Origin: Candidatus Sulfopaludibacter sp. SbA3
Lineage (GTDB): Bacteria > Acidobacteriota > Vicinamibacteria > Vicinamibacterales > UBA2999
Direction of reading: 5' to 3'
Assembly: GCA_945903265.1 (NCBI GenBank)
Contig: CAMDNQ010000021.1
Location: forward strand, 1 to 46,635
DNA length: 46,635 nucleotides
In this document: piece after piece, positions 20,297 to 38,104 of the stretch
Position numbering within the stretch: the stretch's first letter is position 1
Layout of the letters: each line of letters opens with the position of its first letter
Notes under the pieces: generated by a model
The model's database searches: none
What the model saw: only the letters and a program-made list of their open reading frames with translations
What the model was told of the DNA's origin: nothing
Position numbers and translations under genes: made by a program

Positions 20297-20308
20297 CTGT
20301 GAATGGAA

Positions 20309-20314
20309 ATGATA
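20309..20314 (-). promoter_or_regulatory. Candidate -10 for the lipoprotein gene
   Basis: TATCAT on the minus strand, 12 nt before the ATG at 20296. It lies within about 20 bp of the opposing -10 of the shell-protein gene, so the two promoters overlap back to back. No clear -35 is visible. Confidence 0.35.
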
Positions 20315-20326
20315 CCGCGCATTTCG

Positions 20327-20335
20327 TGCTAGAGT
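20327..20335 (+). promoter_or_regulatory. Candidate extended -10 for the BMC operon, nearly leaderless
   Basis: TGcTAGAGT, the same nine-base pattern as upstream of the MltD-like gene (22472-22480). The hexamer ends 8 nt before the ATG at 20344. No good -35 lies at 16-18 bp spacing, consistent with reliance on the extended -10. Confidence 0.42.
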
Positions 20336-20343
20336 CTCCGCAA

Positions 20344-20619
20344 ATGGCGGCAGATGCGCTCGGAATGATTGAAACGCGAGGACTCATCGGGTCGATCGAA
20401 GCAGCCGATGCGATGGTCAAGGCCGCCAACGTCACGCTCATCGGCAAGGAATACATCGGTGCCGGGTACGTCACCGTCCTGTGCCGGGGCGACGTCGGCG
20501 CCGTGAAGGCCGCCACCGATGCCGGTGCCGCGGCCGCGCGGCGCGTCGGCGAGCTCATCTCCGTCCACGTCATTCCCCGGCCGCATACGGAAGTCGAGCG
20601 CATACTGCCCCAGATATAG
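20344..20619 (+). CDS. Bacterial microcompartment hexamer shell protein (BMC-H, PduA/EutM/CcmK family)
   Basis: A 91-residue single BMC-domain protein that forms hexameric facets of a protein organelle shell. The family core is clear: '[17 protein letters not shown]' at the N-terminus, pore-loop region '[19 protein letters not shown]' (about 36-54), '[19 protein letters not shown]' and the terminal '[12 protein letters not shown]'. The pore loop reads I-G-A-G-Y where PduA/EutM-type proteins usually have G-S-G; the residue lining the pore sets which metabolites pass. I start at ATG 20344 because the preceding in-frame codons overlap the promoter and are unlike the family. The aldehyde dehydrogenase follows after 12 nt, clearly co-transcribed. 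No BMC-T or BMC-P (EutN/CcmL pentamer) gene is in the window. Confidence 0.93.
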
Positions 20620-20631
20620 GCGGGAGCCCCC

Positions 20632-22416
20632 ATGGCCGCCCCGGATAGCATCCCCTCTTCAGAGAAAGACCTCACCTCGATCGCAGAAGCCCGAGCCCTC
20701 GCGCGACACGCGAAGCAGGCGCAGGCACGGCTCGCGGAACTCTCCCAGGAACAGATCGACGCCATCGTGACGGCCGTCGCGGACGCCGTGACGCCGCACG
20801 CCGACGCGCTGGCGCGGCTCGCCGTCGAAGAGACCGGGTACGGCGTCGTCGCCGACAAGCTCCAGAAGAACCTGTTTGCGTCGCGGCGCGTCTACGAGTT
20901 CATCCGGCCGATTCGGACCGTCGGCGTCGTGAACCGGATCGAGGACCGGAAGATCGTCGAGATCGCCGAGCCCTTCGGCGTGGTGGCGGCCGTCGTGCCG
21001 TCGACCAATCCGACGTCCACCGCCATCTACAAGGTGTTGATTGCGCTGAAGGCGCGATGCGCCATCGTGATCAGCCCGCATCCATCGGCGGTGCGCTGCA
21101 TCACCCGCACGGTCGAAATCATGGCCGAGGCCGCCGCGCGCGCCGGGGCGCCGGACGGCAGCATCGGCTGGATGAAGACGGTGACGCTCGAAGGCACACA
21201 GGAGCTGATGAAGCACCGCGACGTCGCCGTCATCCTGGCGACCGGCGGCATGGGTCTCGTGCGCGCCGCCTACAGCGCCGGCAAGCCGGCGTACGGCGTC
21301 GGACCGGGAAATGCTCCCGCGTTCATCGAGCGGAGCGCCGACGTTCCCAAGGCGGTGCGCGACATCATCACGGGCAAGACGTTCGACAACGGCGTCCTGT
21401 GCTCCTCCGAGAATTCGGTCGTCGTCGACGAGCCGATCGCCGAGGAGGCACGGCGGACGTTCGTGGCCGAAGGCGCCTATTTCATGAACTCGGCCGAGAT
21501 GGAGCGGCTGGCCAAGGCGTTCGTCACACCGCAGCGGCTGCCGAATCCGGCGCTGGTCGGCAAGTCGGCGCGCCATATTGCGGATGCGGTCGGCATCCAC
21601 GCGCCCGAAGGGACGCGGGTGCTTATCGCCCCCCTCGCCGGCGTCGGCCGCGACTATCCCCTCTCGATTGAAAAGCTGGCCCCGATCCTGTCCTGGTATG
21701 TCGTGAAGGACTGGCGGGAAGGATGCGAGCGGTGCATCCAGGTTCTGAGATACGGCGGCATGGGCCACACCATGTCGATCCACTCGAAGAATGACGAGGT
21801 CATCCTGCAGTTCGGCCTGCGCAAGCCGGCCTTCCGCATCGTGGTGAATACGCCGACGACGCATGGGTCAATCGGGCTGACAACGGGCTTGGACCCGGCG
21901 ATGACGCTGGGGTGCGGCGGCTGGGGCGGCAACATCACGTCGGACAACATCTCGCCGCGTCATCTGTTGAATATCAAGCGCTTGGCGTACGAGGTGCGGC
22001 CGGCGCAGCGTTCGTCTCCAGACGTAGGGGCCGGCTTCCCTGGCCCGCGAGAAGCCGGGGGCAGCCGGCCCGTGGACAGCCGGCTAAAGCCGGCCTCCAC
22101 GCCATCACTCCCCCAGCCGCCGGCGCGACCTGTCGCTGAAGGCATCCCGGTTCAGGCCCTTGCCGCCCGGATCGACAGTTTTCTGGCGTCCAGGGGCTAC
22201 GTTCAGGGAGGGGAACTTCCCTCGTCCGAGGTGACGGCTCGCCCCCCCGCCCAGGCGGCGGAAGCGGCCGTCGGATTCGTCTGCGAGGAGGACGTGCGGC
22301 TGGCGCTGAGGTCGGGGCGAAAGCTCGTGATCGATGAAAAGACGATCGTCACCCCGGCCGCCCGGGATCTTGGGGAGGAGAACCGCGTATTCATTCAAGC
22401 AGGCTGGAAGTCTTGA
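20632..22416 (+). CDS. CoA-acylating aldehyde dehydrogenase (EutE/PduP-like) with C-terminal extension
   Basis: 594 residues. Oxidises an aldehyde to acyl-CoA with NAD+, the signature core enzyme of catabolic microcompartments. Residues 1 to about 455 form the aldehyde dehydrogenase domain: cofactor region '[18 protein letters not shown]', and catalytic C257 in '[12 protein letters not shown]'. A proline- and glycine-rich linker (465-491) is encoded by an embedded palindromic repeat. An amphipathic helix follows (about 506-525, '[18 protein letters not shown]'), resembling an encapsulation peptide. A terminal module (about 548-594, '[14 protein letters not shown]...[10 protein letters not shown]') recalls the short N-terminal motif of EutQ and EutT. 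AldDHs in other compartments carry simple N- or C-terminal peptides, so this layout is unusual. GGGAG lies 6 nt before ATG 20632. The aldehyde source enzyme is not in the window. Confidence 0.88.
22024..22103. repeat. Palindromic (REP-like) element embedded in the aldehyde dehydrogenase frame
   Basis: Two hairpins lie in tandem. CCGGCTTC (22031-22038) pairs with GAAGCCGG (22051-22058). GCCGGCT (22079-22085) pairs with AGCCGGC (22088-22094). The second hairpin's 14-nt core CCGGCTAAAGCCGG is the exact reverse complement of the core found between genes at 38089-38102. The element is read through without a stop, giving a low-complexity stretch (residues about 465-491) between the catalytic domain and the C-terminal helix. 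The end points are my estimate from where the palindromic composition stops. Confidence 0.65.
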
Positions 22417-38062: not shown

Positions 38063-38103
38063 GACACTACGTACGGCGTACGTCGTGTCCGGCTTTAGCC
38101 GGA
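38063..38103. terminator. Tandem hairpins in the ilvE-like/gcvP convergent gap (probable bidirectional terminator)
   Basis: Hairpin 1: GACACTACGTAC (38063-38074) pairs with GTACGTCGTGTC (38078-38089), one mismatch, loop GGC. Hairpin 2: TCCGGCT (38088-38094) pairs with AGCCGGA (38097-38103), loop TT. Together they fill the 47-bp gap between the two stop codons. Neither has a long U-tract. The second carries the CCGGCTTTAGCCGG core shared, inverted, with the element at 22079-22094. Confidence 0.5.
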
Positions 38104-38104
38104 C

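Follow-up and report, generated by a model that had tools for sequence, protein, structure and literature searches.

Repeats read in frame in the tail of a putative microcompartment aldehyde dehydrogenase: an inverted pair of REP-type palindromes and its counterparts in five other genomes

How does a palindromic repeat come to be translated as part of an enzyme, and has the enzyme made use of it? The question is raised by an aldehyde dehydrogenase (ALDH) gene at 20632-22416 on the + strand of a 46,635-nucleotide stretch of Candidatus Sulfopaludibacter sp. SbA3, here called the window. The window is contig C21 of a genome (G000) of 3.52 Mb in 45 contigs, 98.86% complete; its nearest relatives are mostly Acidobacteria metagenome-assembled genomes, several of them labelled Vicinamibacterales, Vicinamibacteraceae or Vicinamibacteria. 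An earlier note on this DNA had proposed that a mobile palindrome built the tether between the enzyme and its targeting or auxiliary module. We observed that positions 22023-22101 are an inverted pair of repetitive extragenic palindromic (REP) type palindromes lying inside that tether, and that the same tail carries dispersed repeats of other kinds in other genomes. The reading that we consider quite probable is that the tail is a permissive sink: a REP entered a disordered tether that was already there, in frame and stop-free, and was tolerated, and the other repeats were captured likewise.

The element is composed of two REP units in opposite orientation. Unit 1 (22023-22072, + strand) is a long-hairpin form, recognized by its inverted repeats, its fold and its dispersed relatives: a C-GTAG head is followed by GGGCCGGCTTCCCTGGC...GCCGGGGGCAGCCGGCCC, and the inner inverted repeat CCGGCTTC/GAAGCCGG is located at 22031-22038/22051-22058. 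Unit 2 (22073-22100, - strand) has a GTGG head and reads GTGGAGGCCGGCTTTAGCCGGCTGTCCA, with 2 mismatches to GTAGGGGCCGGCTTNAGCCGGC. The whole doublet (22023-22101, + strand, codons 464-490) is framed by the outer pair CGTAGGGGCCGGCTT/AAGCCGGCCTCCACG, whose 15-nt arms are 87% complementary. Both inverted repeats announced by the earlier note are thus present, and they are translated without a stop as it had said, the ALDH frame being open from end to end; 2 of the 5 other frames across the element contain a stop. The heads GTAG and GTGG agree with the definition of REP heads as GT(A/G)G (PMC2817692; this and the other papers are cited from excerpts). The 87 nt of RNA around the element fold at -56.2 kcal/mol (z -4.9), a value reached by 0 of 200 shuffles. 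REP hairpins are present, and two inverted REPs that are separated by a spacer and can fold have the structure of a REPIN (REP doublet forming hairpins). We call the doublet REPIN-like only, because it lacks multicopy status.

Could GC-rich DNA coding for Pro and Ala simply resemble a palindrome? The tether DNA is 74% GC, and stems of 7-9 are found in many orthologous tails. Control counts point the other way. The pattern AGCCGGCTNAAGCCGGC at up to 2 mismatches gives 2 matches in the window, both of them one site read on two strands, against a mean of 0.04 in shuffled windows (2 matches in 1 shuffle of 100). The best match to the REP consensus has 1 mismatch in the window tail and 6-10 in 23 other tails (3 cut tails omitted), and no stem of at least 12 is present in 329 catalytic-core windows with a GC of 0.68 or more. 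Matching copies also occur elsewhere in the genome, well above control counts. Chance resemblance, which we consider very improbable, was rejected on the control counts, the mismatch gap and the genome copies.

The distribution of these copies was analyzed at two levels, the window's own genome and 43 genomes of the family, the latter set serving also for the transposase counts. A 14-nt core at 22080-22093 is the exact reverse complement of the intergenic CCGGCTTTAGCCGG at 38089-38102. At up to 1 mismatch, CCGGCTTTAGCCGG has 29 matches (28 places) in G000 compared to 7 for a reversed control; these multicopy matches belong mostly to a sister subtype, and many of them read GTACGTAGTGT-CCGGCTTTAGCCGG-ACC. 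The earlier note had taken the element for a dispersed one and not mere GC-rich coding sequence, and had named absence of the core elsewhere in the genome as the ground for giving this up; the counts bear it out. Its intergenic partner does contain the exact core, but belongs to the sister subtype: this copy, between open reading frames at 38078-38104 (+ strand, GTACGTCGTGTCCGGCTTTAGCCGGAC), has a GTCG head where many other copies have GTAG, and its flanks are GTGTCCGG...CCGGACC (GTGT and GGACC) instead of the GTGGAGGCCGG...CCGGC of the ALDH copy. Identity of subtype was rejected on these flanks.

The ALDH subtype itself, GTAGGGGCCGGCTTNAGCCGGC at up to 2 mismatches, is matched 6 times in G000, counting the ALDH copy, and is found in 15 of the 43 genomes, with 79 matches in G014, 61 in G007, 54 in G015 and 26 in G027; these counts cover both strands, so that some palindromic sites are counted twice. 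A control pattern has 1 match across all 43 genomes. Relatives of unit 1 are dispersed in G007, G003, G014, G002 and G015, at 75-87% over about 45-60 nt. The copies are mostly extragenic, a rough score putting 6 of the 28 core places in G000 within an open frame that looks coding. The window element is therefore of a dispersed REP type. Hairpin statistics on about 447 kb of G000 gave a single clear family, GTCCGGCT (8 hairpins), and little else. In one relative, five REP matches are arrayed in direct orientation, one about every 110 bp (L215, G014:C77:9082-9544).

The domain Y1_Tnp (PF01797), used to look for REP-associated tyrosine transposases (RAYT), was matched in 32 of the 43 genomes. One such gene, at 57727-58059 of G015:C114, is recognized by the model NF047646, 'REP-associated tyrosine transposase', with 102.6 bits (cut-off 80), and is flanked by REPs of the window type: 3 on one side and 2, inverted, on the other. 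On this evidence from a relative the element type is part of a RAYT-REP system in the lineage, and the window copy was presumably placed by such a transposase. RAYT genes flanked by GTAG repeats have been described (PMC3733652); the excerpt names GTAG repeats for Proteobacteria, Cyanobacteria, Chloroflexi and the PVC (Planctomycetes, Verrucomicrobia, Chlamydiae) group, with Opitutus terrae richest in intragenic ones, and Koribacter versatilis for transposases with other inverted repeats. The G015 locus (L214, G015:C114:55800-59500), where the three REPs are direct and the two opposite ones inverted, comes from a phylum that this excerpt does not name for GTAG repeats.

We then consider what the doublet is inserted in. 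The enzyme (594 aa) matches Pfam Aldedh at 96.9 bits and falls in the coenzyme A-acylating branch. Its best NCBIfam model, TIGR02518 (acetylating acetaldehyde dehydrogenase), reaches 611.5 bits, slightly below the cut-off of 620.1, and leaves it unnamed; the closest solved structures are 3k9d and 5j78. Immediately upstream, at 20299-20619 on the + strand, lies a gene for a BMC-H shell protein (Pfam BMC, 99.8 bits). Judging from sequence and neighbourhood, the enzyme is a microcompartment-associated acyl-CoA aldehyde dehydrogenase. Orthologous loci (n=64) were taken from two collections with partly overlapping genomes, cut contigs included, and 59 of them have a BMC-H match. In the stretches of the window scanned with family models no microcompartment gene was found beyond BMC-H and ALDH, the remaining window not being scanned for others. 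Since the assembly consists of 45 contigs, and repeats may lead to false joins, the tail might be an assembly artefact. This is scarcely credible and was rejected: on both sides of the element lies the same gene, in frame, with the architecture shared by the orthologues, and upstream stands the usual BMC gene.

An AlphaFold2 model based on 26 sequences predicts the following tail. A disordered tether (about residues 456-505, 21997-22146, + strand; pLDDT, the predicted local distance difference test, <50 for residues 450-497) leads from the catalytic domain to a helix at residues 507-520 (22150-22191, + strand; block mean pLDDT 61-67). Further on come a second disordered stretch, at 524-542, and a small folded domain at 547-589 (block mean 66-91). 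The model is of moderate quality (overall pLDDT 71.1), and part of the catalytic domain (residues 396-440) is also below 50. In an alignment of 26 sequences (A1), L510, F517 and L518 are conserved columns of the helix. By analogy with the encapsulation peptides of microcompartment cargo, which are amphipathic helices on poorly conserved disordered linkers (PMC8217296, PMC12339742), this helix would be the targeting, or encapsulation, helix. Here too the helix is predicted to sit on a variable disordered linker; the difference is the presence of repeats in the linkers, which the excerpts of these two papers do not describe for cargo. The C-terminal mini-domain (FVCEEDVR..., 22270-22398 for residues 547-589) is conserved, better predicted than the linkers, and has no Pfam match in the ALDH.

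Below, "first linker" designates the stretch from the catalytic domain to the presumed encapsulation helix, and "second linker" the stretch after the helix. The earlier note had put the element between the catalytic domain and a C-terminal helix; the position is correct, but the helix is followed by the second linker and the small domain. Tether length was measured from the conserved LLNIKRLA motif to the helix motif, in a screen of 41 distinct tails, the window's included, all scanned for stems and some folded. Outside this set are L076 and L119 (one identical cut tail), L133 (cut), L138 (no helix motif) and the loci in which the motif before the tether was not detected. The L138 tail enters the C-terminal domain without a helix motif; its product may possibly be an untargeted form of the enzyme.

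Was the tether built by the palindrome? It was present in all 40 other measurable tails, with a range of 29-61 aa over the 41, and the window-type REP was missing from 23 of 23 other tails scanned for it. The construction proposed earlier is consequently not supported. In the window about 27 of the 56 residues from the catalytic domain to the presumed encapsulation helix are encoded by the REP doublet; the 37 tails with no demonstrated first-linker repeat have tethers of the same 29-61 aa. The earlier note had also named, as a ground for giving up its reading, a linker conserved at protein level in distant homologues lacking the palindrome. This applies by half: position and character of the linker are shared by such homologues, but its sequence, as well as its length, varies in alignment A1, in which orthologues without a demonstrated repeat keep the same tail architecture.

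The window is not alone in carrying a repeat at this place. Dispersal was tested for 6 of the 41 tails, picked for strong stems or repeats, each against its own genome. All six, the window included, contain a dispersed repeat in frame, and the six repeats are different. They are distributed as follows: in the first linker in the window, G013, G017 and G041, and in the second linker in G066 and G004. In G013 a REP doublet of a different type, CGTAGGGCGGGTCTTTTCGGACCCGCC...GCCGGGTCCCAATGGACCCGGCCTACG, has GTAG at both feet and 56 matches up to E 10 in its own genome, among them another 61-bp copy at 87%. In G017 a palindrome of about 40 bp, AGAGCGTTTTTCGATTCGGTGGAGACCGAAAAACGCTC, has 140 candidates, of which 40 were scored; 39 outside the ALDH gene are 90-100% identical. 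In G041 the repeat is a tandem one, CGATCGAC, with a modest stem (97 candidates, 40 scored). The second-linker cases are a GGGTC palindrome, GGGTCGGACTGGGGTCAGACCCCATTCCGACCCCAGTCCGACCC, in G066 (17 candidates, 33 matches on both strands) and, in G004, a hairpin with four further copies at 86-94%. The six encode six different peptides (VGAGFPGP..., VGRVFSDPPESRVPMDP, RAFFDSVETEKRS and RSTDAGRSTMDDRRST are examples). Stems of 12 are also found in the second linker of L087 and L141, both outside the dispersal-tested set.

We examined the position of the six carriers on a tree of 40 catalytic domains (L141, too short, was omitted). The carriers require six changes (5-6 in bootstraps), of which well-supported branches impose at least 3. 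Each of 500 label shuffles requires equally few, so that the carriers are scattered and unclustered. The repeats being of six different kinds, the most economical view is that they were captured separately. One small clade of six includes G000, G013 and G004, and a GTA-GGG codon pair is part of the REP doublet in both G000 and G013, four codons apart. It is possible that in these two genomes one old doublet was replaced by another type.

These results are consistent with the following sequence of events. REP palindromes with GT(A/G)G heads would have spread in the lineage with the help of RAYT transposases. One inverted doublet would have entered the DNA of an already existing disordered tether, by chance in frame and stop-free, and it would have been kept since the tether mainly needs flexibility, its sequence and, within limits, its length being nearly free. 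More generally, mobile palindromes would insert widely, gene-breaking inserts would be lost, and those that are in frame and stop-free in disordered stretches would survive; the ALDH tail, which has taken up other dispersed repeats in at least five further genomes, would thus act as a permissive sink. The inserts appear to be nearly neutral, because the six peptides differ, linker length shows no clear shift between carriers and other tails (p 0.15 and 0.51), and the architecture is intact elsewhere.

The earlier note had spoken of repeat exaptation. In an adaptive reading of this kind, the residues encoded by the repeat would tune the length or stickiness of the tether and hence the loading of the enzyme into the microcompartment. 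Four genomes do have their repeats between the enzyme and the presumed targeting helix, two have them in the linker after it, and with 57 residues, compared to a median of 41, the window tether ranks among the longer ones. The six captures nevertheless share no common chemistry, their carriers are not clearly longer than other tails (the first of the two p values above), and orthologues with no demonstrated repeat do with the same architecture. Exaptation of the repeat-encoded residues is improbable on these grounds.

Selection could also act on the nucleic acid, the hairpin pausing ribosomes after the catalytic domain or yielding 3'-shortened messages, and thereby an untargeted form of the enzyme. 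The very stable fold described above and the place of the hairpin, past the catalytic domain and ahead of the presumed targeting helix, would suit such a role. So would the excess of strong stems in tails: 6 of 79 tail windows contain a stem of at least 12, compared to 0 of 842 windows from the catalytic core (Fisher p 3e-7, for windows from related genes that are not independent and with a cut-off chosen after the stems were seen). First-linker stems of at least 10 are, however, restricted to 5 of the 41 tails, the G041 element is a tandem repeat with a modest stem, and compared to shuffled codons the fold of the window linker has a z of only -2.2. We therefore hold this role to be quite improbable. 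The stem excess bears on another alternative, in which the tail would be a genuine hot spot, its coding sequence renewed in one lineage after another by unrelated dispersed repeats, either because the DNA there attracts them or because a hairpin or fresh spacer near the enzyme-helix boundary is favoured. The excess does not separate such a hot spot from a permissive sink, because core windows cannot accept inserts; we regard the hot spot as unlikely.

Several observations weigh against the permissive sink as well. The visible palindrome measures 79 bp, which is not a multiple of three, and a clean insert must therefore differ from it. No congener is present among the compared genomes, so that no empty site is visible and the edges of the insertion are not fixed. 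The doublet has a single full-length match in G000, and among the matches listed for the 43 genomes no other covers it whole. The PF01797 search of G000 gave 0 matches, and no RAYT was thus detected in the window's own genome: the transposase link suggested earlier stands in G015 but not here. This absence alone does not exclude a REP, because no evident correlation was reported between tyrosine transposase genes and repeat families (PMC3733652). The stem contrast depends on the cut-off, since at stems of at least 10 the counts become 10 of 79 tail windows compared to 40 of 842 core windows. The dispersal-tested tails were selected, as said, and the rate of six in six does not cover the other 35. 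Finally, the repeats may have replaced tether sequence rather than added to it, as linker length is similar in carriers and others.

Taken alone, the window element is a further example of the intragenic GTAG REPs described in PMC3733652. Over half of the inserts reported there consist of doublets or groups, which contribute 20-30 residues, and in flexible linkers or loops such inserts are perhaps neutral. It shares with them GTAG palindromes inside genes, doublets, and a RAYT flanked by repeats; compared to that excerpt, a microcompartment tether and several repeat families in one tether are met only here. Rickettsia palindromic elements (RPE) are palindromes in frame in open reading frames that likely encode functional proteins; the intragenic repeats listed for R. 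conorii, where the CGTC type is richest, include RPE-4 and RPE-6 (PMC3733652). Compared by description only, the doublet is like them in being read in frame, and differs by its GTAG and GTGG heads. REPINs are extragenic and replicate as doublets (PMC3116915). The association with a RAYT, seen in a relative, is common to both; the window doublet differs in being intragenic and in its single full-length match. We found no precedent in the open-access literature for a microcompartment tether that has taken up several repeat families; as far as this search goes, a single organelle-cargo tail in which different repeats were captured is new. One orthologous tail followed across an order, with six repeats in six genomes, amounts to a natural insertion assay of what a cargo tether tolerates. 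A further consequence for work on these genomes is that coding repeats disturb gene prediction, the comparison of linkers and tests based on codons. Were the hot spot true, bacterial organelles would regularly draw new cargo-tether sequence from mobile repeats.

The earlier note had expected a rare case, which is not supported: REPs read in frame have been published before (PMC3733652), and further ones are found in this bacterial family. A first coding test undercounts them, missing the ALDH copies in G000, G017 and G066. A second one recovers those in G000, G013, G017, G004 and G066 and misses that of G041; its fractions are rough. It took part of the matches (30 of 40 scored in G017, 10 of 40 in G041), the ALDH copy always included, and skips runs of N (in G013, 19 loci entered and 16 were counted). 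A coding-like frame was found for 6/16 places in G013, 1/30 in G017 and 1/5 in G004 (the ALDH copy itself in both), 0/10 in G041 and 9/15 in G066, besides the 6/28 of G000, of which at least two (L046 and L047) lack REP flanks and look like chance.

REPs are read in frame in kinases, in KdsB, in a methyltransferase and in a PfkB-family kinase, and in-frame capture is therefore a general process in these genomes. What is notable about the ALDH tail is that one tail is seen catching six different repeats. In G015, 9 of 46 REP clusters were flagged by the rough coding score, some of them on the wrong strand of a kinase, for which the sense reading was checked separately. In several protein kinases REPs occupy the NIAAIYG-ALVLELVEG loop, and one kinase has a REP in its activation loop, behind DFGLAKAL; all six kinases scanned have a Pfam Pkinase match that extends across the insert. 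The kinase paralogues with in-frame REPs are L269, L271, L281, L286, L219 (6390-6411) and L220, with the shared loop and once the activation loop, and either one insert was duplicated or the loop captured repeats more than once. An in-frame REP doublet is present at L219:767-825 (G015:C109) in a loop of KdsB (3-deoxy-manno-octulosonate cytidylyltransferase), spanned by CTP_transf_3; the structure 3oam aligns around the insert and has loop residues of its own at that place. In G027 a REP lies inside a methylguanine methyltransferase. In the window's own genome the sister subtype is read as VRLKPDTTY in a PfkB-family kinase (L057) and as VRLKPDTTT in another open frame (L041), and an FKBP-type protein (L002:1445-2329, G000:C7) carries VGAGFPGP, part of the unit 1 peptide as it stands in the ALDH, near a signal-like N-terminus.
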